Source: Clostridium sp. (GTDB lineage: Bacteria > Bacillota > Clostridia > Oscillospirales > Ruminococcaceae). From it: DNA of 64,000 nucleotides. The notes beneath the pieces are model-generated. The model was not told where the DNA came from. It searched no databases and was given only the letters and a program-made list of their open reading frames with translations. This document shows positions 11,957-48,013 of the stretch, in pieces. The stretch covers positions 1 to 64,000 of the forward strand of contig JAMPFN010000004.1 of the NCBI GenBank assembly GCA_023664445.1. The letters run 5' to 3'. A program made the position numbers and the translations under genes. Numbering within the stretch: position 1 is the first letter of the stretch; every line of letters starts with the position of its first letter.

Positions 11957-12559
11957 ATGGAGATTTCATTTTATCCCAGATGTCAGCTTGGTATGGAAAT
12001 ATATTTTTCTCCTGATTCTGATAAGTTTTCAATAATTAAGCTTGATGATAAGTATTATATCCGCATTAAAAATCCTGAACGGGAGTGGATATATCCTACA
12101 TGGAAAGAGAATAAATTCAGAACATTTGATGAAGCTCAAAGTTGGCTGAGTTTACATGATTGGGAAAGTGCAGATCATGACCATATTAAGTATGATGATT
12201 CTGTATTCATCAATATGGCGTTTACAGCACTTTCGGACAGACAATCTGTATTGGCTGCGATCAATACCAAAAATCTTGCCAATGACCTTGTAAGGGTACG
12301 TTCATCAAACGTCTGGGCATATGGATTGAATATCAAAAACCGAAAGGATAAAACAGGAGATTTATTGGTACAGTTTAAGAATAAAAACGGCGGTGCGGGT
12401 GATGTGTATATCTACTATGATGTTCCTGTTATGATATATCGCCGCTGGCAGTCTGCACCAAGTAAAGGGCATTACTTTTGGGTGTATATAAGAAACAATT
12501 TTAATTACAGCAAGCTGACCGGGGATAAACGCGGAAAGCTTGGAAATGCAGTTAATTAA
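11957..12559 (+). CDS. KTSC-domain protein
   Basis: 200 residues, RBS TGGAGGAATGAGTAA. Residues about 115-190 match the KTSC pattern: SSNVWAYGLNI, then GDLLVQFKNK, YIYYDVPVMIYRRWQSAPSKGHYFWVYIRNNF. The S-x-x-x-x-x-GY, L-x-V-x-F, Y-x-Y-x-x-V-P and A-x-SKG-x-[YF] elements are visible. KTSC is a small domain, often at the C terminus of phage and prophage proteins and suspected of binding a ligand or nucleic acid. The N-terminal half is unassigned. Confidence 0.7.
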   Translation: MEISFYPRCQLGMEIYFSPDSDKFSIIKLDDKYYIRIKNPEREWIYPTWKENKFRTFDEAQSWLSLHDWESADHDHIKYDDSVFINMAFTALSDRQSVLAAINTKNLANDLVRVRSSNVWAYGLNIKNRKDKTGDLLVQFKNKNGGAGDVYIYYDVPVMIYRRWQSAPSKGHYFWVYIRNNFNYSKLTGDKRGKLGNAVN

Positions 12560-12572
12560 GGAGATGGAGTAT

Positions 12573-13034
12573 ATGAAAGTTTATAAGCATAGAATAAGTG
12601 CAGCAACCAATTCCGCACAAGGATCAGGTACTACATATTATTTAGTAACATTCGATCAGATACAAAAATTTTTCAATGGTGAAGATTCTAATGTCTGGAT
12701 AGGAAAATCTTTTGAAGAACTCGGATGGGCCGCTATTGATTTTGACAACAATTTGTTCGGAAGTCAGATTATAGGCGATGACTTGTATATATGTGTTACT
12801 GACGGCAAAGATATTGAGGTTAATGGTGATTTAGTAAATCCGGAAGAAGCTTTGGAGATTTGTGCACCGGATGATCTTTCAGAATATATTAAATCTGCTT
12901 CTAATGGGATTATTCAAAGGTATATCACGGAATATGAAATTGTCATGCCTGATTTTGATAACTGGGCTGCCGACCTTCTTGAAGATAATATCAGCTTTTC
13001 AAGAATGGTATCGGATTTTCATGAATTTGATTAA
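12573..13034 (+). CDS. Hypothetical acidic protein with MKVYKHRISAA N terminus
   Basis: 153 residues; the ATG at 12573 follows AAGGAGATGGAGTAT. It is acidic (many D and E) with an internal SEYIKSASNG stretch resembling the N-terminal tag of its neighbours. It is the last gene before the strong terminator at 13038, so the fibre-region transcript ends here. Function unknown. Confidence 0.55.
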   Translation: MKVYKHRISAATNSAQGSGTTYYLVTFDQIQKFFNGEDSNVWIGKSFEELGWAAIDFDNNLFGSQIIGDDLYICVTDGKDIEVNGDLVNPEEALEICAPDDLSEYIKSASNGIIQRYITEYEIVMPDFDNWAADLLEDNISFSRMVSDFHEFD

Positions 13035-13037
13035 TAA

Positions 13038-13077
13038 AATAATAAGCAAGTCAATATCTACTGACTTGCTTATTATT
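13038..13077. terminator. Strong bidirectional terminator
   Basis: AATAATAAGCAAGTCA (13038-13053) pairs perfectly with TGACTTGCTTATTATT (13062-13077). It is the boundary between the tail-fibre region and the AT-rich accessory cassette. Confidence 0.9.
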
Positions 13078-13134
13078 TATCTCTATAATGTGATCTGCAC
13101 TGAACACTTTTATCATCTTAATTTACCTCATGAC

Positions 13135-13159
13135 ATAGCACAGCCTGTTTTTGTGCTAT
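13135..13159 (+). terminator. Weak terminator-like hairpin
   Basis: ATAGCACA (13135-13142) pairs with TGTGCTAT (13152-13159). The T tract lies within the loop side rather than after the stem, so termination is uncertain. It lies at the left edge of a 963-base stretch (13078-14040) without a protein-coding gene. Confidence 0.35.
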
Positions 13160-13271
13160 AGTAGATTAATAGTGAAAATAAAAAAGTGAATAAAATTAGA
13201 TATGTACCATATAAATTAAATGTGATACCAAACAGCAACTGAAAATTGTGCAAAACGTCTAAAACTCTAAC

Positions 13272-13300
13272 TTGACATATAATTTAAAATATGATATAAT
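13272..13300 (+). promoter_or_regulatory. Consensus sigma70/SigA-type promoter
   Basis: TTGACA (13272-13277), a 17-base spacer and TATAAT (13295-13300): both hexamers are perfect. It drives rightward RNA into the non-coding stretch upstream of the metallo-beta-lactamase-fold gene. Use of the host housekeeping sigma factor sets this cassette apart from the phage-type motifs elsewhere. Confidence 0.8.
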
Positions 13301-13333
13301 AAATAATTGCTTTTTTATATTTGTGTAAATTTG

Positions 13334-13403
13334 AGCTACCTTCGAGAAAATTAATTTTCTCTTGTTTCAATCTTCATGTAGCAAGCCTAATTGAAATTGT
13401 AGC
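13334..13403 (+). ncRNA. Possible pseudoknotted 5' RNA downstream of the consensus promoter
   Basis: About 34 bases after the promoter, GCTAC (13334-13338) can pair with GTAGC (13378-13382, or a second copy at 13399-13403), enclosing the stem-loop GAGAAAATTAATTTTCTC (13344-13361). TTTCAAT (13365-13371) can pair with ATTGAAA (13390-13396), which interleaves with the first stem as an H-type pseudoknot. The following stretch to 13660 is AT-rich and shows no open frame with a ribosome-binding site. RNA function is speculative. Confidence 0.3.
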
Positions 13404-13669
13404 AAAGAAACCCAATATTTTTCCATATCAAGTCGAAAGAAAAGACATAAAATAGCAATAACAATGTAACTATGGGGAATATTTATTAGTGAAATAGTTT
13501 TAATTGTAAGTGGATTTACTATACGTAATTTGTTAATCAATAACAATTAAAAACAGTATACTTTGCAAAAATACAGAAAAAGTACATAATTACTTTCTTG
13601 CTGAATTTTAAACACTTTTGTGCAACCTTACAATTTTTTCGATTTTTCAAGATTTTTTCTCTCAAATAC

Positions 13670-13698
13670 TTGACATTTCCTGAAAAAAGTGATAAGAT
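13670..13698 (+). promoter_or_regulatory. Second sigma70-type promoter
   Basis: TTGACA (13670-13675), 17-base spacer, TAAGAT (13693-13698). It would start the leader RNA that precedes the gene at 14041. Confidence 0.7.
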
Positions 13699-13820
13699 AA
13701 ATGAGTTGATAAGTTTACGCTGTTGTGTGATATAGACAAATTTCTCCTTTGAATTTGTTTATATGCAACAAAATTCAAAAATTAAATACAAATAAAAAGA
13801 ATATGTTAAGTGCATATAGT

Positions 13821-13970
13821 ACCTGAGAAAGCAGGTGGCATGTGAAGCCAGTCATAATATCCTGCCGAGGGAAGTTATAAAAATAAGACCGTTGTGAATG
13901 GATTGATTTCTATAGGGGAAGATGACTTTATTGACTTTTTCATAGAGATAGTTTGAACAACGGTTTTTAT
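13821..13970 (+). ncRNA. Structured leader with transcription attenuator
   Basis: ACCTG/CAGGT (13821-13825 with 13832-13836) competes with GCAGG/CCTGC (13831-13835 with 13861-13865), so two folds are mutually exclusive. TGGC/GCCA (13836-13839 with 13847-13850) forms a small hairpin between them. ACCGTTGT (13888-13895) then pairs with ACAACGGT (13957-13964), followed by TTTTTATT, a terminator ahead of the gene at 14041. The architecture is that of a riboswitch-like or protein-controlled attenuator, but it matches no riboswitch class I know. Confidence 0.5.
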
Positions 13971-14040
13971 TATATAGATTTTATCAAAAGTATTAATTAT
14001 CTGTGGAGTTGGAAAATAACCTAATAATGAAGGTATTGTT

Positions 14041-15471
14041 ATGAGAAGTTGTTTAGAAGGTTTGTGGAGAGAAATTGATCCGCTAATTTCAGAAGTATTG
14101 CATGATGGTAATAATTCAGATTTATGTGGGAAACATAATGATATGCTGAATTTTGTTGCAGAAAAAATTTCTGAAATAATAAATATTGTAAGATATGTAA
14201 ATGAAGGTGATGCAATAACCTTAGAGCATCTATTAGTATTTGCTAATATATTAAAAAACGATACAGATTTACCACTTCACAGATTAACAACAGCAGCAAA
14301 TGCTGCTGTAACCCTTTCGAAAAAATGTAATTTATGTGCTATTTGCCAAAATTGCTCATATAAAAAATATATGTTAATTTTAGAACATAAAATGAACGAA
14401 AGAGCGATTTCACATGGATTAAGCAACTATTTTTCAAAACCTCAGAGAATGTTTTATTATTTATCATTTTATGACAAACTGAAAATGGTAAACAGCTTAG
14501 AAAATAAGATTTTTTGCTTAAAAGGATTTTCTTCTTCAACGCCATTAATACATTCTGCCATTTTTAAGAATGTATGTTATGGAGGAGGAATTTATATTAA
14601 TTTTGGGGGTAAAGGTATTGTCATAGACCCTGGTGTGGATTTTGTGGATACTATGCATAGAATGGGGATATGTATTAGAGATATTGACGCAGTTATTATT
14701 ACACACGCTCACATGGATCATAATGCCGATGCTGATGCACTTTCTTCTCTCAATTATGATTATAATGCTTATATGACGAAATCCTTCTTTGTTGGCAAAT
14801 TACTGGAAAGAACCCAAATGGTGGGTCATGACATAAAATGGATAGTAGATGATTTGGATTGTAATCAATTAGAGAACAATGGAGTACAAAATATTGAGCT
14901 GTTAAGTGAATATAATGAACGTTGTATATTTACCGATAAAAAAAGTATTAAATTACAATTTGTGCAAACGAAGCATATGAAAAATGAAAAAACTTATGGA
15001 ATTAAATTGACATATGAAAATTTTAGTATCGGTTATACTTCTGATACAGCTTATTTAAATGAATTTAATGATTTTTTTGATGATTTAGATGTTTTGATTT
15101 TTAATATCAGTGATATTTATGAGAAAGATGTTATAGGAATAAAAAGCAAACACACACATTTGGGATATAATGGGAGCGTTAGTTTGTTAAAAAATATTCC
15201 TAAGTCACCAAAACTTTCAGTTGTTTCTGAATTTTGCTGTACAAATGGTGATATAAGAGAAAAAATAATCGCAAAAATGAAAGATGATTTGGGTGAGAAA
15301 TTTAAAGGCACTTTACTTCCAGGAGAAATCGGTTTAGTAATTTCAATTCCTGAATTAAAAGTTAGATGCGATATCTGTAGACAATATATTAACCCTGAAA
15401 ATACATACATACTTTCACCAGAACATGAATATGGAAAAATTTCTTTTGTATGTGGAAATTGTTTCAGATAA
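14041..15471 (+). CDS. Metallo-beta-lactamase-fold hydrolase with two zinc-finger extensions
   Basis: 476 residues. Residues about 170-420 form an MBL fold: THAHMDH at 221-227, His312 (TKHMKNEKTYG), Asp335 (YTSDTAY) and the HTH at 371-373. This complete metal-ligand set favours phosphodiesterase or RNase Z-like chemistry. The N-terminal ~150 residues are helical and end in C-x2-C-x2-C-x2-C (Cys96-105). The C terminus adds a second finger (Cys443, Cys446, Cys471, Cys474). MBL enzymes of this style occur in phage-bacteria conflict loci (for example Apyc1 degrades cyclic nucleotides), so a defence or counter-defence role is plausible. The substrate is unknown. It is preceded by an attenuator and followed by three small genes. 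Confidence 0.75.
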   Translation: MRSCLEGLWREIDPLISEVLHDGNNSDLCGKHNDMLNFVAEKISEIINIVRYVNEGDAITLEHLLVFANILKNDTDLPLHRLTTAANAAVTLSKKCNLCAICQNCSYKKYMLILEHKMNERAISHGLSNYFSKPQRMFYYLSFYDKLKMVNSLENKIFCLKGFSSSTPLIHSAIFKNVCYGGGIYINFGGKGIVIDPGVDFVDTMHRMGICIRDIDAVIITHAHMDHNADADALSSLNYDYNAYMTKSFFVGKLLERTQMVGHDIKWIVDDLDCNQLENNGVQNIELLSEYNERCIFTDKKSIKLQFVQTKHMKNEKTYGIKLTYENFSIGYTSDTAYLNEFNDFFDDLDVLIFNISDIYEKDVIGIKSKHTHLGYNGSVSLLKNIPKSPKLSVVSEFCCTNGDIREKIIAKMKDDLGEKFKGTLLPGEIGLVISIPELKVRCDICRQYINPENTYILSPEHEYGKISFVCGNCFR

Positions 15472-15549
15472 ATTTAAAATAGCATTGTTATTAAGTGTGC
15501 TGATAGAATTAAATTGTTTATAATAGAAATAAAACCGGGGTGACATAAA

Positions 15550-15954
15550 ATGGAAGAATATGAATTTATTTTAATCGTGCTTGAAGAGTATTTGTCACAC
15601 TATAATTCTATAGTGACTTGTTTGGAAAATTATGATGCAAAATCTTTTAAAAACGCATATGATGAATTTTTTGAACAATACTTGACGTACAAAGAACTTT
15701 ATGAGAATTTAACAAATGAAAGTGATATGAATGAGGATTGTGAAAGAAATCGATTTAGGTTTTTGCGAGAGAAAGATTTTAAAGGTTTTATTAAAAACTT
15801 AAAGCAACTGGTGCCAAACCATGATATTGAATCAATAATTCAATCTTTCTATTTAGAGGTTAATTCCCAGGATGTAATAAATTTAGAAACAGAGTTGGCC
15901 ATTTATCCATATCTATTAAAGCAAATTAGAAATCAGGAGGAAAATGCATTATGA
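15550..15954 (+). CDS. Small helical protein of the MBL cassette
   Basis: 134 residues, RBS CGGGGTGACATAAA. It is strongly acidic and predicted all-helical (EEYEFILIVLEEYLSHYNS, NLETELAIYPYLLKQIRNQEE). There is no recognised family. The stop overlaps the next ATG in an ATGA arrangement, so it is translationally coupled to the 60-residue gene. It may be a partner or regulator of the MBL enzyme. Confidence 0.6.
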   Translation: MEEYEFILIVLEEYLSHYNSIVTCLENYDAKSFKNAYDEFFEQYLTYKELYENLTNESDMNEDCERNRFRFLREKDFKGFIKNLKQLVPNHDIESIIQSFYLEVNSQDVINLETELAIYPYLLKQIRNQEENAL

Positions 15955-16133
15955 ACATGAAAATTTGGGAGGAACTTGCCTTAATTAGGGAAGCTTTTGA
16001 AAAACAGCCATTACAACGTCTGAAAGTTGAAGAAGACAGAGGTGGATATATTGATAATGAGGAAGAAAACGAAGAGTATAAAGGTAATCTAAAGGATGGT
16101 TTTTATGGTATGTACTGTAAAAGCAGAAAGTGA
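15951..16133 (+). CDS. Small acidic protein of the MBL cassette (60 aa)
   Basis: Starts at the ATG in the ATGA overlap with the previous gene; RBS AGGAGG nine bases upstream. The central acidic run (DNEEENEEYKGN) sits between a helical N terminus and a basic tail (CKSRK). No homologous family is recognised. Overlap and spacing argue for a real operon member. Confidence 0.5.
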   Translation: MNMKIWEELALIREAFEKQPLQRLKVEEDRGGYIDNEEENEEYKGNLKDGFYGMYCKSRK

Positions 16134-16145
16134 AATAAATAAAAT

Positions 16146-16694
16146 ATGGATGAACTTAAAATAATACATGAAACAGAGAAAAAACAATATTGTAAAAACA
16201 TCTATGAAATGTATATCGTAAAAACATCTAAAATTTTAAATGATTGTAAAACGATTGCACTATCTTATAACAGGAAACTACCTATTTCTTGTTATACTAA
16301 TTTCAGAGATGCATTATTTCACTTTAGAAAACTTTATTGTTCTGTTGAGGAAACAGCATTTTTTAATCAGGGGTTTGCCATTAAGGAACACCTAAATCGT
16401 TCAAAATCAGATGCATTGGGTGTGATTTATGGATTATTTTCATTGATTTCTGAGTTACTTGTTACTAATGGAAATTTAGAAAAAACAGATATACTCTTTT
16501 TTAGAAAATGGATGCATAGATTACGAACTGAAAGTCTTCACAAACGTTTGAATGGAATGATGATATTTGATGATTCGCTAAAATTATCAGATGAAACAGC
16601 AATGGCTATGCTTTTAGAATTTTCACATGAAATAATTGAAAGGAATCTGCAATTATTATGTGCAGAATTGTTGTCAAAATATACTCATAAATAA
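16146..16694 (+). CDS. Helical protein, last gene of the MBL cassette
   Basis: 182 residues, mostly helix, with amphipathic stretches (GVIYGLFSLISELLVTNGNLEK, AMAMLLEFSHEIIERNLQLLCAELL). No signal peptide, clear membrane segment or catalytic motif is visible. It lies 12 bases after the previous stop with a weak ribosome-binding site, consistent with coupled translation. It is AT-rich like the rest of the cassette. A short inverted repeat (ATATCAA...TTGATAT near 16696) follows. Confidence 0.55.
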   Translation: MDELKIIHETEKKQYCKNIYEMYIVKTSKILNDCKTIALSYNRKLPISCYTNFRDALFHFRKLYCSVEETAFFNQGFAIKEHLNRSKSDALGVIYGLFSLISELLVTNGNLEKTDILFFRKWMHRLRTESLHKRLNGMMIFDDSLKLSDETAMAMLLEFSHEIIERNLQLLCAELLSKYTHK

Positions 16695-16802
16695 AATATC
16701 AATTTCTCTTGATATATGGATAGATTTAAAAATATGAAAGTCATACATATTTCTAAAATATTGTCAATTTGATATAAATGTGATACTTTTATTAACTAAA
16801 GT

Positions 16803-17537
16803 TTATAAATTCTCCGTTAATCTCTTATGCAAAATTTTTAATGCTTTTGGTAGAGTAGATTTCAAGACATCATAATCGATGGTATATAAATCAGAAAGGT
16901 GACGTAAATCACGGTCTGAGAGCGGTGATTCCTGTTCTATCATTTCCTGAATCAATAATTCTTCAATCAAGTCATACATAGTAGTCTGATAATCTTCAAT
17001 ACTGTGATGGTTATTCGGCGCTTCAAGGTATAATTCAGCATCTGATATATCTGCCGGATAGCTTGCGCCAAGTATGGATTTCAGAGCGTTCATATCATTT
17101 GAAGAAAGCGTTACATTTGTTAAGTCATCATATGTCACAGCAGTCCAGTTTTTGCCGAGCTGTTCTGCTGCTTTCATACAGAGAGTCCGCCTTGATGTAT
17201 AGCTGACAGTACTCAGATTTCTGCGTATTTCTTCCGATAATCTTGGTTTGAAAAATACTGCAAAAGACAGGTCGGCACGGTATTTAGGGGTCCATTTGTA
17301 TTTCCACCACATTCCCATAAATGATAATAATGCTGTCTGAAACTTATCCTCATGCGTTGTATTTTCAACAAACGTTGAAGCTGCTACATAGCCGAAAAAT
17401 GTGTAATTTAATTCTATGATCTCATCACGTATAGATAAACACCTGATCCGTTCTTCCTTTTCATGTGGCAGAGAATCGTATAGTTCATTAGTCCGAGTTT
17501 TGATGTAATTACTGCTGTTTTTCTTGGAATTCGACAT
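16803..17537 (-). CDS. Putative phage sigma-like transcription factor
   Basis: 244 residues, RBS AGGAGGAATCAAA. Residues 33-100 resemble sigma region 2 (RDEIIELNYTFFGYVAASTF, then W-K-Y-K-W-T-P-K-Y-R-A-D-L and RLSEEIRRNLS). Residues 100-145 (SYTSRRTLCMKAAEQLGKNW, then VTYDDL) resemble a region 3-like helical segment. The C terminus is helical and could hold a region 4-like part. It is the only gene behind its own AATCGTTA motif. If correct, it would redirect host RNA polymerase to a phage promoter class. This is fold-pattern inference; a non-sigma helical DNA-binding protein remains possible. Confidence 0.45.
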   Translation of the reverse strand: MSNSKKNSSNYIKTRTNELYDSLPHEKEERIRCLSIRDEIIELNYTFFGYVAASTFVENTTHEDKFQTALLSFMGMWWKYKWTPKYRADLSFAVFFKPRLSEEIRRNLSTVSYTSRRTLCMKAAEQLGKNWTAVTYDDLTNVTLSSNDMNALKSILGASYPADISDAELYLEAPNNHHSIEDYQTTMYDLIEELLIQEMIEQESPLSDRDLRHLSDLYTIDYDVLKSTLPKALKILHKRLTENL

Positions 17538-17662: not shown

Positions 17663-18136
17663 TTATATTATCAAGGAAATATGCTTGTCAGGTATGCCAT
17701 ATTTTATAATTTCAACACCGGTAATATCAAACATATTCTTAGCAGCCTTCGTACTGTCTGAATCAGGATATTTATTTTCATAGTAAATAACGGTTGTAAT
17801 ACCGCTTTGTATAATAGCTTTAGCACACTCATTACATGGGTGCATGGTAACATATAATGTACAGCCTTTCAGAGATTTATGACTATTCAGTATAGCGTTC
17901 AATTCGGCATGACATACATATGGATATTTTGTGTCAAGATAATTTCCGTCTCTTGTCCACGGAAAACTGCTGTCATTACCATTCGGCATACCGTTATAGC
18001 CTACTCCGACAATAATATTATCAGAATCCGCAATACAAGCGCCAACCTGGGTATTTGGGTCTTTACTTCTTTGAGCGGCAATCATAGCTACGCTCATGAA
18101 AAATTCTCTCCATGATATGTAATCTTCTCGCTTCAT
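17663..18136 (-). CDS. dCMP deaminase (ComEB-like)
   Basis: 157 residues. Zinc-dependent cytidine/deoxycytidylate deaminase fold: the HAE motif (CHAELNAI) and PCxxC ([10 protein letters not shown]) supply the zinc ligands and the proton-shuttling glutamate. The N terminus ([28 protein letters not shown]) is the typical family opening. It converts dCMP to dUMP for ThyX (2322-3050). Last gene of the minus-strand operon, 13 bases after the primase stop. Confidence 0.93.
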
Positions 18137-23887: not shown

Positions 23888-24249
23888 CATTGTAATTTTA
23901 TTTTTTTGGTTTATAAAAAGATTTTTCAGAAAAAGTATATAGTATTTTATAATTATTTATTTTTTATTTTATATTATTTTGTATTTGTATTTTATATTAT
24001 ATATTATATATAGGCGAAAATCCTCATTTTTGAAGAAATTTAATGTTTAAAATTCTCCAAAAATGAGGTTTTTAATTTTGAATATTAAAATTTAATAATT
24101 TAAAATTATACAAAAGAATATTTTTTACTTCTGATAATGTGAAATATAATCATATGGAAAATTCAATTTGTATATTTTTATTTTGAAATGATCTAATTTT
24201 ACAAGTTTTAAAGTTTAAATCTTTATTTTTATGAAATTCTAATATAGAA
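23888..24249. other. AT-rich non-coding stretch with a long hairpin; candidate origin region
   Basis: No gene is visible between the replication operon and the next minus-strand gene. 23890-24015 is nearly pure A/T with runs of TTTTATATTATT-like sequence. CCTCATTTTTG (24022-24032) pairs perfectly with CAAAAATGAGG (24058-24068); flanking A and T runs extend the stem, which could be a bidirectional terminator. AT-richness beside primase/helicase genes fits a DNA-unwinding element, but no DnaA boxes or iterons were recognised. Confidence 0.35.
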
Positions 24250-24283
24250 AACCCGACTGAATCTTAATAAAATCAGTCGGGTT
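24250..24283. terminator. Bidirectional terminator
   Basis: AACCCGACTGA (24250-24260) pairs with TCAGTCGGGTT (24273-24283). The minus-strand exit is TTTTCTATATT. It ends the minus-strand gene at 24288. Confidence 0.88.
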
Positions 24284-24287
24284 GATT

Positions 24288-25051
24288 TTAGTTGTTATTA
24301 ATACCATAACCACATCTATATGGCTCACACGTCTTAAATATATCAATAGAAATCCTACACTTTGACATTATACCATCGTTGTATAGAAATTTACAATATG
24401 CAGGACATGAGAAATTAGCTTTATACTCTCTCATGGCACGTTTGCGTTCTTCTTCAGCTTTTTCTTGTTCTAATTTTTTATTGTATCTTTCTAAAACTTC
24501 TACCATATCTGTATCCGAGTCATTCATTATATTAATAATTTGACCTAATTGCTCGGGTTTAAAATTGTATTTATTGATTATAAATGGATTGCTGTTTTTT
24601 AACAAAACGTTCATTGTATTTTGTATATTTTCAAATTTTTCAACCACCTCCTTATGAGTAGTGGTCATTGATGAATCATATAAAAGTTTTCCATTAAATT
24701 CACTCCATAAATAAGTATAAATCATAGTATCATCATATGACATATTAATTTGTTGAGTTGCATAGTATTTTGTAAAACGTAAAAACGAATAACCCATCCA
24801 TATATATTTAGTTTTAGGAGCAATTCCATTAAAAATACTATTTGAAAAGGCTCTGATTATAGAACCAGTATTTTGGGAATAGTCAAATAATTCATATACT
24901 AAATATTGGACATTGGTATTTATTTTTGAAGTTATAGTTGGATCTGTTACTTCAGCTGTATATGTAATATAGAATCCGCAACTTTATTTCCACATTTGCT
25001 GCAGAATTTAGCACCTTCCGATAATTTATTACCACAATATGTGCAGAACAT
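24288..25051 (-). pseudogene. Zinc-ribbon protein gene interrupted by a frameshift
   Basis: A strong RBS (TTGGAGGAAGAATAATT) precedes an ATG at 25049-25051. It encodes MFCTYCGNKLSEGAKFCSKC..., a double C-x2-C zinc ribbon, but that frame stops after 34 residues. The reading continues in the -1 frame from about 24985: SCGFYITYTAEVTDPTIT..., open to 24288. The last 169 residues (from an internal ATG at 24797) include an acidic/basic coiled coil (KKLEQEKAEEERKRAMREYK) and a Cys-rich tail. A one-base indel near 24980 would restore a ~250-residue protein. No slippery heptamer is obvious, so mutation or sequencing error is more likely than programmed shifting. Confidence 0.6.
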
Positions 25052-25053
25052 AA

Positions 25054-26061
25054 TTATTCTTCCTCCAATTTAATAGGCATTTTCAGCAGTTTATCAAGTT
25101 CAAGAGAATTAATTGCTATGCCGTTGTTGCACGACATCATAATTTCCTGTCCCACTTCACTGCTGAGGTATTTTTTAATGTAATACGGGTCGGATTTTTC
25201 TTCATTGATCTCAAACACATAAAGTCTGCCGACAGCGATAACAGTTTTATTGTCGGGGATTTCCGCAACAGCAACTTTTAAAGGTCTGCCGATTTTGGAA
25301 ATTATAATATTATGATTTTTTACCTGATGATTCAGATAAGACTCCCTGCACTCCGACAGATACGGCAGATTCATATCAATTTCACCATTGATCATATGTC
25401 TGGCTTCAATATACTGATAGTCGGTAGGCATATCAGAGTGAAGTTTTTCTTTTTCCTCCGGTCTGAGCTGCAAGCCGCATATAACAGGCGGTTTAATTAG
25501 CGAACCGAACTCCACAGCATTTTCATAGCGTTTTAAAACTTTCAGATAGTATCTCGGACTCAAGTCATACTTTTCTTTCATAATCGTTTCACATGGAATT
25601 TTGCTGCTGAATTCCGATTCTTCGGAACTTAAAGAAACGATAGAATTAATATCTTCTTCCGTAAGAATATTCTTTGTTTTATCATCAGAGTGATATATCT
25701 GTGCGGCGTCTGTCATTTTTACCGACTGATTATCACAGCTGAAAACAAGCATTAAAAGCGGTATGCCTGTATCATCAAGCAGCTTCATTGGCAGAAGGAT
25801 AACTGATTCAAGCAGACCTTTGTCAATAATTGCTTTTCTGAGGGATTCACCTCTGATTTCATAAGAAAATCTCGGAAATACCGTTAAAACTTTCTTTTCA
25901 TCGGGCTTTAGTCCAAGCAGTTCCGACATACATTCATCAGTTTCATATACATGATCTGATTGGTTTGAATCTCCCCCTAACTTGTCAATAAGCTTAAGTA
26001 CAGATTCAGGAAGCATAATTTTTTCTTTGTGTTTTTTCGATAATGGTCTTTGGATTTCCAT
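25054..26061 (-). CDS. Truncated HsdM fused to an HsdS-like target-recognition domain
   Basis: 335 residues. Residues 60-115 match the distal part of type I methyltransferases (RFSYEIRGESLRKAIIDKGL, LESVILLPMKLLDDTGIPLLMLVFS). Residues 190-330 resemble a specificity-subunit TRD (EARHMINGEIDMNLPYLS, IIISKIGRPLKVAVAEI, YYIKKYLSSEVGQ, GIAINSLELDKLLKMPI). The SAM-binding motif I and the catalytic NPPY/NPPF motif are absent, so it should not methylate DNA alone. It may be a decoy, a regulator, or a subunit borrowing a host enzyme. It overlaps the RBS of the downstream frameshifted gene. Confidence 0.6.
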   Translation of the reverse strand: MEIQRPLSKKHKEKIMLPESVLKLIDKLGGDSNQSDHVYETDECMSELLGLKPDEKKVLTVFPRFSYEIRGESLRKAIIDKGLLESVILLPMKLLDDTGIPLLMLVFSCDNQSVKMTDAAQIYHSDDKTKNILTEEDINSIVSLSSEESEFSSKIPCETIMKEKYDLSPRYYLKVLKRYENAVEFGSLIKPPVICGLQLRPEEKEKLHSDMPTDYQYIEARHMINGEIDMNLPYLSECRESYLNHQVKNHNIIISKIGRPLKVAVAEIPDNKTVIAVGRLYVFEINEEKSDPYYIKKYLSSEVGQEIMMSCNNGIAINSLELDKLLKMPIKLEEE

Positions 26062-26084
26062 TTTTAACTCCTTAAATTTTGTGT

Positions 26085-26122
26085 ATAACGAACAAAAATA
26101 TATAACTGTTTTTGTTCGTTAT
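26085..26122. promoter_or_regulatory. Perfect inverted repeat upstream of the HsdM/HsdS-like gene
   Basis: ATAACGAACAAAAA (26085-26098) and TTTTTGTTCGTTAT (26109-26122) are 14-base perfect arms around a 10-base AT-rich spacer, centred about 40 bases ahead of the minus-strand start at 26061. Position and symmetry suggest an operator for autoregulation. A methylation or recognition site is an alternative. Confidence 0.5.
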
Positions 26123-26222
26123 TAAGTATAGCATATCTGGAAATAAAATGCAATCCGCATAACTTATAAATTTATTTAATGGTACTGTGTATATTTTCAA
26201 CAAATATAAATTTAACTCTTTC

Positions 26223-26281
26223 AATCGTTATAATAAGTGTAATCAAATAAACCTTATATATCATTGAGATCAAATTCTCAA
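26223..26281 (+). promoter_or_regulatory. Both phage motifs in tandem, with hairpin
   Basis: AATCGTTATAATA (26223-26235) is followed 15 bases later by ACCTTATATA (26251-26260) and then by the hairpin TTGAGA/TCTCAA (26264-26269 with 26276-26281). This is the only place where the two motif classes occur together; both point at the gene at 26304, suggesting expression in two phases. Confidence 0.55.
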
Positions 26282-26303
26282 AAAAACAGGAGTTGAATTA
26301 ATT

Positions 26304-26657
26304 ATGAAAATTTATGTAAGAGCGGCTAAAAGACCAGATTGGATGCCAAAAAACATGTTTACAGAAGCTGAACTTCAGCAAAATAAGTTGCACAGAAAGA
26401 TGTTGCACGAACTTGACCGCATACCAGACATTCTTGTGGGAGTTGCAGAAACTTCTGAGGAATGGTATGATTTAATTGGTGATATTGACCAAGAAACTGA
26501 TTACAATAAAATTCTTGCAATTGCTGAGGATGCTCTTGATGTTGACTATGAAATCTGGGAAGCTGATGACTTAATTAGATCCTATAATACACTGAAATTC
26601 ATTGTATCTGATGTATATGATCTGCTCGATGAATATAAAAATATGAATGATCTATAA
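26304..26657 (+). CDS. Small acidic protein with MKIYVRAA N terminus
   Basis: 117 residues, RBS AACAGGAGTTGAATTAATT. It starts MKIYVRAAKRPDWMPKN, the same type of opening as the proteins at 11522 and 60339. The remainder is acidic and helical (ETDYNKILAIAEDALDVDYEIWEADDL). It is a lone plus-strand gene inside a minus-strand island, with two promoter motifs and its own terminator. Function unknown. Confidence 0.6.
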   Translation: MKIYVRAAKRPDWMPKNMFTEAELQQNKLHRKMLHELDRIPDILVGVAETSEEWYDLIGDIDQETDYNKILAIAEDALDVDYEIWEADDLIRSYNTLKFIVSDVYDLLDEYKNMNDL

Positions 26658-26675
26658 AATTTCCTACTATATGAG

Positions 26676-26716
26676 AAAAATAACCTGCTGAATTTGATAC
26701 TCAGTAGGTTATTTTT
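26676..26716. terminator. Bidirectional terminator between convergent genes
   Basis: AAAAATAACCTGCTGA (26676-26691) pairs with TCAGTAGGTTATTTTT (26701-26716), 16 bp with one G-U wobble and A/T tracts on both sides. It serves the plus gene at 26304 and the minus mrr gene. Confidence 0.9.
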
Positions 26717-26724
26717 ACCTTATA

Positions 26725-27627
26725 TTATTCATAATTTTCAAAGTATTTTTTATCAACTGTATATACAATTTCTTTAGATACACCAATTTCATATTGAAGA
26801 ATCAAATCAATAAGCTTATCGCCATCAATGAGATTGATTTCTTTGTTTTGATCCTTGCTACTGGCTGCTTCTCTTGCCTCTTTTGTGAAATAGCTTGTTG
26901 TAATAAAAAGACCTCTATTGATGTTAATAGGAAGTGATCCCCTAAAAGCTTGAATTGCTTGAGATGTAATGCTTTTAGAACTTTTGTATTTTTTGCACTG
27001 GAAAGCAATTAAATCACTAAATATTTGAGGCTCATCTATAGATAGTCTGCATGTTCCATCAATACCATGATCCCGTGACTTAGATGTTAGCTCAATATTG
27101 ACAAGTCCACATTTTCTAAGAATATGTGCACATAAACTCTCAAATTTATAGGGATCCATGTTGACTAATGCCTCCCGTACCTGTTCTCGCCAAGGGGCGG
27201 CATCTGGAGCACTCATGATATAATCATTAACTATATCAGTATCTATAGCTACTGTATCTGCATTTTCTATTGATGAATAAGGCACTTGTTTTAATGACAT
27301 TGCAAGTTCAATAACATCATCTGTTAAATCAGAAAAGGAAATGTATTTACTGGTGATACTCCATGTTCTATTGCTTATATTGTTGATAACTTTTGCTTTT
27401 TTCAATGCTGTTCTTGCCCATGCAAGTCTATATTCAAGTTCAGTTTGATTATTTCTTATATGGGGAACTTCAGTTATTTCAGATGACAAGTTCATAATGC
27501 TGATAACCTTGTCACAAATCTCACTATTTGTAGCTACACCACCGAGAAATTTTAATGCTTTAAATGTTGGATTGATTAGACTTCTTATATCCGGAACATC
27601 AGCAAGTTCAGATTTCTTTTTTGCCAT
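26725..27627 (-). CDS. Mrr-family type IV restriction endonuclease
   Basis: 300 residues from the ATG at 27627, preceded by AAGAGGTGTGAC; an in-frame ATG 10 codons upstream has no RBS. The N-terminal ~110 residues form a winged-helix domain (LINPTFKALKFLGGVATNSE, ELEYRLAWARTALKKAKVI, NRTWSIT). The C-terminal Mrr nuclease domain has LCAHILRKCG, then DHGIDG and IAFQCKKYK, the D...QxK form of the PD-(D/E)XK site. Mrr proteins cut modified DNA. In a phage this would act against other phages or the host. It has a probable own promoter (TTATAAT about 30 bases upstream of the start). Confidence 0.85.
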   Translation of the reverse strand: MAKKKSELADVPDIRSLINPTFKALKFLGGVATNSEICDKVISIMNLSSEITEVPHIRNNQTELEYRLAWARTALKKAKVINNISNRTWSITSKYISFSDLTDDVIELAMSLKQVPYSSIENADTVAIDTDIVNDYIMSAPDAAPWREQVREALVNMDPYKFESLCAHILRKCGLVNIELTSKSRDHGIDGTCRLSIDEPQIFSDLIAFQCKKYKSSKSITSQAIQAFRGSLPININRGLFITTSYFTKEAREAASSKDQNKEINLIDGDKLIDLILQYEIGVSKEIVYTVDKKYFENYE

Positions 27628-27929
27628 GTCACACCTCTTAAAATATTTTTTGATCATTATAACTAAAATATCAGAGCAATTTTAGCTTATCTTGTATAAT
27701 TATATCAGATTCTGTATAAAATGTCTATTCGCATTATAGCTATAAAAATAATTATCTATTTAGTTGTATTTTACAAAATTAACTATGATATTTTATTCGT
27801 TAAGAACAAAAATTATCCTCTATGAGAATTAAATTAATTTCATGGAGGATATTTTTTAGTTTTATAGTAAGAATCACAATTCAAATTTCATATCAATCCT
27901 ATATATTGAGGAGTAAGGCTATGTCTCTT
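27628..27929. terminator. Non-coding gap with bidirectional terminator and mrr promoter region
   Basis: ATCCTCTATGA (27815-27825) pairs with TCATGGAGGAT (27840-27850), 11 bp with one G-U, and is followed by ATTTTTT on the plus side and AATTTTTG on the minus side. It ends the minus-strand rtcB transcript. Between it and mrr lie AT-rich sequence and a TATAAT-like element pointing at mrr. Nothing else was seen in this 302-base gap. Confidence 0.75.
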
Positions 27930-28100
27930 CTAATAATCATCAATCTCTGAACCTTTGTGTTTAGGATGCCTTTGGTAATCCTTAATACTCTTTTCCTTAC
28001 GTGTAACAGGGTTTACGTTTCCCCAATCACAGCGTTTTTGAGCGTTAAGCTTCTTTTGTTCCTTTTTACTCATTTTTTCATAGGGTATAAATTTTTCCAT
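27930..28100 (-). CDS. Small basic protein downstream of rtcB (56 aa)
   Basis: Begins MEKFIPYEKMSKKEQKKLNA and continues with CDWGNVNPVTRKEKSIKDYQ, ending KGSEIDDY. RBS AAAAGGTGAGAGAT. It starts five bases after the rtcB stop, so it is probably co-transcribed. I associate this type of short, Lys-rich protein with a WG-x-x-NPVTRK core with Lachnospiraceae and Oscillospiraceae genomes. Function unknown. Confidence 0.65.
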   Translation of the reverse strand: MEKFIPYEKMSKKEQKKLNAQKRCDWGNVNPVTRKEKSIKDYQRHPKHKGSEIDDY

Positions 28101-47550: not shown

Positions 47551-48013
47551 ATATTACAGCAATAAACAGGAACATATGATAGCCGACTGCCTTGGGTGGT
47601 CGGTTGTTGCTGCGAGCGGCGCAAGACGCTTTGAACCGGGTGACATTCGTTCTGATGATTATTTAGGAGAGTGCAAAACACACATGTCGGAACAGTCCGA
47701 TATTGTGATATATAAAGATGTATGGAGAAAAATTTCGTCAGAAGCCGTATCTGTAATGAAACGTCCTGTTTTGTTTGTGGATAACGGTACACAAAAAATA
47801 AAGAATACATGGTGTGTGACTCCGGAACGGTTTTTACCGGATAAACGTCATATTCAATGTGATATTATGATGAGGGAATCTGAAACAAAGCTTTCATTTC
47901 CGCATGAAAAATGGAATGGTATACTCGACAACGGCTGCGCTTCATTTAAGATAAACGGCGAATCGTTATTATTAATGAAGTTGGAAACCTTCAAAAATTT
48001 ATTTCAGGAATAG
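47528..48013 (+). CDS. PD-(D/E)XK Holliday-junction-resolvase-like nuclease
   Basis: 161 residues; the ATG at 47528 follows CGGAGGG inside the recA end, and the longer frame from 47504 lacks an RBS. Catalytic residues: E15 (NKQEHMIADCLGW), D39 (EPGDIRSDDY) and E48-x-K50 (LGECKTH). The compact size and GAR-x-x-E-x-GD pattern resemble archaeal Hjc and phage resolvases. It would trim recombination or packaging intermediates. Overlap with recA (23 bases) suggests coupling. Confidence 0.75.
   Translation: MSTMKPTKYYSNKQEHMIADCLGWSVVAASGARRFEPGDIRSDDYLGECKTHMSEQSDIVIYKDVWRKISSEAVSVMKRPVLFVDNGTQKIKNTWCVTPERFLPDKRHIQCDIMMRESETKLSFPHEKWNGILDNGCASFKINGESLLLMKLETFKNLFQE

Follow-up and report, generated by a model that had tools for sequence, protein, structure and literature searches.

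The stretch of DNA analysed here (the window) comprises bases 1-64,000 of a 68,180-base contig in a 2.83-Mb Clostridium sp. assembly, and it carries, among phage genes, a block encoding a metallo-beta-lactamase (MBL)-fold hydrolase followed by three small proteins. It is likely that this block represents a phage cargo (moron-like) operon placed under an attenuator of the ribosomal protein L10 type, the latter having been copied from, or having evolved like, the bacterial rplJL leader. Ribosomal protein leaders are private feedback loops of ribosomal operons, and the L10-type control of a phage cargo operon is the new point of the current analysis. Coordinates of the features discussed are given in Table 1.

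Identification of an L10-type leader

A scan of positions 13000-14100 returned RF00557 as the sole Rfam match with an E-value of up to 1, while the whole assembly contains two RF00557 places, of which the host rplJ leader (62.4 bits, with rplJ- and rplL-like frames downstream) ranks first and the window leader second. The kink-turn core, UAA and stem of RF00557 leaders are all present in the window leader, and its predicted folds include the terminator and antiterminator of L10 leaders; the gene that it precedes is that of the MBL protein, and tblastn finds no rplJ. The preliminary description of this DNA had proposed an attenuated leader, which is borne out both by these folds and by the stability of region 13704-14045 relative to shuffles (z -2.26), although its L10 type had gone unrecognised. 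The non-coding stretch at 13306-13700 does not fold unusually relative to shuffles (z -0.58).

A stringent pattern of the core (AGAMAG..GG, gap, TAA, 2-4, CC..CCGAGG, with M instead of C so that the window's own variant fits) yielded a single match in the window, at 13826-13870, and none in 20,000 shuffles of 13078-14040. Across 396 genomes of the phylum, the pattern was matched 107 times in 106 genomes, as opposed to once for a reversed-pattern control, the only genome with two matches being that of the window. Among the 37 matches that were examined, 36 were located upstream of rplJ and the remaining one was the window leader, whose variant AGAAAG (in place of AGACAG) was also encountered in seven of these rplJ leaders. 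It is therefore very improbable that the L10 match is a product of chance in an AT-rich stretch: a chance match of 33 bits in a coding gene does exist among the hundreds of genomes searched (see below), but the leader sits between a promoter and a gene with its terminator in register, the shuffles never reproduced its core, and every other place examined lies before rplJ.

As the family model RF00557 includes the terminator and U tract, a core-only model, designated R1, was constructed from 27 leaders, 26 of which were verified by tblastn to lie upstream of rplJ; these training leaders were selected for AGACAG and CCGAGG, and those letters are therefore fixed in R1. Genome-wide, R1 scored the rplJ leader (itself a training sequence) at 46.4 bits, the window site at 22.4 and the next site at 13.5. 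When applied to 27 test sources, it detected seven held-out rplJ leaders as well as the mobile-element leaders described below, and was silent (E up to 1) on five core-less RF00557 suspects, seven chance-pattern contigs and a Monoglobus locus. R1 alone is not decisive, however, since a false match within a coding gene (L138) reached 33 bits. This site (~1501-1569 on the minus strand, in G693) is a near-perfect chance L10 core and calls for caution in core-only scans.

Further evidence was obtained from an alignment of ten leaders, i.e., that of the window, four from rplJ, four from mobile elements and one from a contig end. Here, 92% of stem cells pair compared to 82.6% in shuffles, the inner stem covaries across the ten leaders, and the covariation score exceeded those of all 500 shuffles, a shuffle which does not control for kinship of the leaders; slid structures also scored far lower.

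Several observations weigh against this assignment. The leader scores 42.9 bits, 1.1 bits short of the RF00557 gathering cut-off of 44 bits; in a survey of 295 genomes of the order, 252 contained an RF00557 match but only 215 contained one above the cut-off, the other 37 having none above it. Its R1 score lies below that of the false L138 match, its outer stem contains an A-G mismatch, and its core lies ~110 nt past promoter P2, farther than in other mobile copies and with an extra hairpin intervening. Moreover, the unforced fold, calculated without protein or kink-turn energy, favours an alternative over the anti-antiterminator by 3.6 kcal/mol, the L10 core is absent from 36 examined loci of MBL relatives, and the order and phylum genomes, phages, plasmids and viral contigs yielded no relative of the operon as a whole, so that the leader is not seen to be conserved together with the cassette genes. 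Some of these points, namely the sub-threshold Rfam score, the altered loop, the outer-stem mismatch and the extra 5' hairpin, would suit a leader that was once an L10 leader and now answers another signal or none. We consider such decay improbable, as the kink-turn GA/GA nucleotides, the UAA and the inner stem have all been retained and the AGAAAG variant occurs naturally in rplJ leaders. Judged on its sequence, the window leader appears to be built to work like an L10 leader, and it is termed 'L10-leader-like' because its score narrowly misses formal Rfam membership.

Promoters and the predicted switch

The preliminary description had also reported two perfect or near-perfect promoters. Both sites were recovered (Table 1), yet promoter-like sites are no commoner overall than in shuffles (31 observed versus 33.3), and for this reason only the 12/12 site P1 is notable. 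A long AT-rich hairpin (13716-13768) between P2 and the L10 core was not noticed in other mobile leaders and may affect the switch.

In PMC4538822, the L10(L12)4 complex of Bacillus subtilis is described as binding, with a Kd of 33 nM, the rplJL leader in its anti-antiterminator form, which contains a kink-turn and UAA, thereby promoting termination. The window leader is predicted to be able to form an anti-antiterminator, antiterminator and terminator of this type. The antiterminator is the minimum-energy fold of the transcript prior to the 3' arm of the terminator, and its pairing occupies the UAA plus part of the terminator's 5' arm; antiterminator and terminator are predicted to be mutually exclusive and to arise in the required order.

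By analogy, the cargo operon is probably gated by free L10(L12)4, with the direction of control being inferred from the B. subtilis system (PMC4538822). Abundant free L10(L12)4 would hold the core, allowing the terminator to form and keeping the four genes off, while scarcity of free L10 would allow the antiterminator to form and the operon to be transcribed. Such scarcity might result from fast rRNA synthesis, or from rplJL no longer being expressed once the host is shut off. Since the level of free L10 would set the choice between terminator and antiterminator, the operon would in effect sense ribosome-supply status. In the weakest step of this proposal, the hydrolase and the three small proteins would most likely constitute a module for growth control or one of a defence/toxin-antitoxin-like kind.

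L10-type leaders on other non-ribosomal operons

The RF00557 survey of the order revealed seven genomes with more than one match, all of which were re-examined. A corresponding R1 survey of 297 genomes of the family produced matches in 255, of which five had two; four of these five were re-examined, plus four others. For viral contigs, three pattern scans were added to the two surveys.

In G193 and G221 (loci L075 and L078), leaders of 39.7 and 41.1 bits precede a three-gene cassette encoding a membrane-type protein, a 105-aa protein and a 179-181-aa protein. Transposase-like and relaxase-like genes were read from the sequence of the 39.6-kb contig L094, where an RF00557 leader of 37.2 bits precedes a gene for a SocA_Panacea protein (52.9 bits, cut-off 25.7), and in G937 (L143) an R1 leader of 28 bits likewise precedes a SocA_Panacea gene (30.5 bits against the same cut-off). 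The membrane-type (coiled-coil) partner proteins of these two operons are related (pairwise E 3e-8), and a search of viral contigs with a partner alignment returned no match but itself. Finally, in a single prophage-like element (L194-L196), an R1 leader of 29.4 bits precedes genes for a membrane-type and a second small protein, adjoining genes read as lysis genes. No rplJ was found downstream of these leaders, either by tblastn (L075, L078, L094 and L143) or by reading (L194), and consensus TTGACA-17-TATAAT promoters were also read at L094 and L194. PADLOC returned only marginal matches, of 14.6 bits or less, to the proteins of these loci. Single non-rplJ cases may reflect contamination of assemblies.

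The G193/G221 cassette also occurs on Monoglobus pectinilyticus plasmid NZ_OY725727.1 (L089, 5046-6552), with a third protein that is 34% identical and with no L10 leader, indicating that the cargo can occur apart from the leader. Leaders of the L10 type that lie at contig ends (L076 and L083 in G105, L140 in G765, L052 in G068 and L136 in G937), with neither rplJ nor a readable gene downstream, were not counted; in G105, two contigs stop at almost the same leader, in a repeat-like manner. A number of candidates were rejected: five non-rplJ RF00557 matches (L080, L082, L084, L085 and L086) lack both the core pattern and an R1 match and were treated as chance, while the R1 matches L138 and L142 lie inside coding genes and are false. 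In the first viral pattern scan only one of eight contigs, L094, bore a leader, and in the third scan every match on its 21 contigs fell inside an open frame of at least 90 codons and none exceeded 15 bits with R1.

According to PMC8832971, toxins that disrupt membranes are among those neutralised by the Panacea domain, and on this basis the L094 and G937 operons are likely toxin-antitoxin pairs. We advance a broader claim only tentatively: in Clostridia-type bacteria, phages and mobile elements may time and again have brought conflict modules under an RNA imitation of the L10-binding site, with free stalk protein as the signal that is sensed.

The inserted block and its setting

Phage genes in the window include those for a DNA polymerase, clamp loader, terminase, ligase and tail sheath; neither tRNAs nor Rfam families at gathering score were found within its 64 kb. 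Two related viral contigs, G687 and G688, were selected by means of their terminases (76-78% identity). G687 aligns only to the right part of the window (from ~51470), leaving G688 as the one informative relative. In G688, the counterparts of the genes flanking the block (window 12540-13034 and 16803-17537, with 45% and 67% identity, respectively) are only 25 bp apart, at 47845/47871, thus representing an empty site. Neither G687 nor G688 contains a match to the four cassette genes or to RF00557.

The cassette is therefore a clean, moron-like insertion: an extra block with its own promoter and terminator, missing from the relative G688. The preliminary description of an autonomous, moron-like block is supported, including the strong terminator at its left, the strand switch at its right, where a convergent gene (16803-17537, minus strand) forms the edge, and the promoter, attenuated leader and MBL ligands within it. 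Its reported shift in base composition is upheld in part: the G+C content is 27-30% across 13001-17000 compared to ~36% in the surroundings, but other low-G+C stretches occur in the window at 24001-25000 (25%) and 26001-28000 (30%).

Table 1. Features of the inserted block and its leader.
Feature	Position	Strand	Description
Inserted cargo block (moron-like)	13035..16802	.	~3.8 kb; not present in related phage G688
Left terminator-like hairpin	13037..13078	+	17 bp, -21.2 kcal/mol
Promoter P1	13272..13300	+	TTGACA-17-TATAAT, extended -10 (TG), 12/12
Promoter P2	13670..13698	+	TTGACA-17-TAAGAT, TG, 10/12
L10-leader-like attenuator	13804..13978	+	RF00557, 42.9 bits, E 2.5e-5, full length, terminator in place
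L10-binding-type core (predicted anti-antiterminator)	13816..13880	+	Kink-turn AGAAAG/CCGAGG; stem GCAGG 13831-13835/CCUGC 13861-13865; unpaired UAA
Antiterminator (predicted)	13848..13901	+	13848-13850 and 13852-13858 paired with 13891-13897 and 13899-13901, 10 bp
Intrinsic terminator (predicted)	13887..13965	+	9-bp outer stem, U-rich tail, -23.2 kcal/mol
MBL-fold hydrolase, 476 aa	14041..15471	+	PF12706; helical N-terminus without relatives, C-terminal zinc-ribbon-like end
134-aa protein	15550..15954	+	No family in family libraries
60-aa protein	15951..16133	+	No family; overlaps 134-aa gene
182-aa protein	16146..16694	+	No family in family libraries; predicted all-helical (low confidence)

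Immediately left of the insertion, 11957-12559 encodes a KTSC-domain protein (PF13619, 41.9 bits), while a deoxycytidylate deaminase-type protein (PF00383, 94 bits) is encoded at 17663-18136 of the same phage.

The encoded proteins

The hydrolase belongs to the MBL superfamily (PF12706, 59.1 bits against a cut-off of 27), and the full set of metal ligands announced for it was located by reading the sequence (HxHxDH at 222-227, H312, D335 and H373), using the MBL metal-ligand motif. Of the two Cys4 fingers that had been proposed, the C-terminal one is substantiated as CX2C-X24-CX2C, while the N-terminal CX2CX2CX2C does not constitute a classical finger. The proteins most closely related to the hydrolase are long: their N-terminus is tetratricopeptide repeat (TPR)-like or of another kind, all have an MBL domain, and several end in CX2C...CX2C; identity to them is at most 45%, over part of the domain. 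They are scattered over many phyla and yielded only partial, domain-level matches in the 295 order and 398 phylum genomes, and none was found in the phage, plasmid and viral-contig collections. The protein thus appears to resemble an uncharacterised TPR-MBL-zinc-ribbon type, with members of which (L005, L013-L015, L017, L019 and L020) it shares GGGY..KGIVIDPG.DF and HLG..G-type motifs and, in L013-L015, the CX2C...CX2C end. In place of their N-terminal TPR it possesses a helical region with CX2CX2CX2C, and unlike the window gene their loci have no L10 leader nearby.

An AlphaFold model built from nine sequences (mean predicted local distance difference test score, pLDDT, of 63.8, with higher values in the MBL domain) was most similar in Foldseek searches of the PDB to YhfI (6kns) and an ELAC homologue (1zkp), followed by arylsulfatase, Apyc1 and RNase Z. 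The preliminary description had drawn attention to Apyc1, an anti-Pycsar MBL enzyme, and the block might accordingly serve counter-defence if its hydrolase were an Apyc1-like anti-CBASS/Pycsar phosphodiesterase. The two proteins do have in common the MBL fold, a full ligand set and a weak sequence match (phmmer to 7u2s, E 4.3e-6), and Apyc1 ranks twelfth in Foldseek. This activity is nevertheless not supported and we regard it as unlikely, since the protein scores 30 bits for the Apyc1 family PF23023 against a curated cut-off of 50, carries additional N- and C-terminal parts, is matched better in fold by YhfI and the ELAC homologue, and is closest in sequence to TPR-MBL-zinc-ribbon proteins of bacterial genomes.

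The three small genes are tightly coupled, as had been described, with a 4-nt overlap between the first two and a 12-nt gap between the second and third, and their products have no Pfam or NCBIfam match above cut-off. For the 134- and 60-aa proteins, no relative emerged from the family libraries or from G687 and G688, the only places in which they were sought. Among 290 genomes of the order, the 182-aa protein was found only in its own genome, apart from one weak match with stops, and it has no relative in viral contigs or plasmids. Its single-sequence AlphaFold model (mean pLDDT 49.8) was not used, and a likeness by eye to the last of the three proteins encoded by the L078 cassette was dismissed, as blastp, phmmer and hhalign did not detect it. 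Co-occurrence of the four genes elsewhere, suggested in the preliminary description as a test of a new conflict system, was not observed in the order and phylum genomes, where only the partial MBL-domain relatives occur.

PADLOC matched none of the four proteins to any model at E up to 1, which, together with MBL relatives that are found in many phyla without a known role, would be consistent with a different function: the attenuator may simply link a harmless gene, of the lysogenic-conversion or metabolic kind, to the production of ribosomes, with no conflict role. This must be taken seriously, but we hold it to be the less probable case, given that two divergent operons with L10-type leaders encode Panacea antitoxin-domain proteins with a membrane partner and that further such operons carry small membrane proteins. 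Small membrane proteins are a common make-up of conflict modules. Since toxin-antitoxin-like operons are found behind other leaders of the L10 type, a conflict function of the window operon is still plausible by analogy.

Comparison with known systems

An L10-type leader is found not only on phage cargo but also on three or more further accessory operons that are unrelated, which suggests that the state of host ribosome assembly is read by mobile elements. This offers a concrete, testable signal to which small-gene cassettes of otherwise puzzling purpose may respond, and makes the L10 core outside rplJ a handle by which to search for them. If the broader claim is true, starvation, for instance, or the shutdown of the host by another phage would flip the module by upsetting the proportion of rRNA to ribosomal protein, and toxin-antitoxin or defence operons would have a trigger of a novel kind.

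A search of the open-access PMC literature, including passages of PMC4538822 and PMC3766115, turned up no description of an L10 leader in front of non-ribosomal genes. Compared to the Panacea system (PanAT, PMC8832971), in the main text of which the words 'leader' and 'ribosomal protein' are absent, the L094 and L143 operons similarly encode a SocA_Panacea protein with a membrane coiled-coil partner, while the window operon is without a Panacea domain. With the B. subtilis rplJL leader and RF00557, the window leader shares the kink-turn and UAA core, the predicted antiterminator and U-tract terminator, and the attenuation layout; it differs in its AGAAAG core variant, its long nested terminator and its marginally sub-threshold score, and, whereas the former serves rplJL, the leader described here serves phage cargo.

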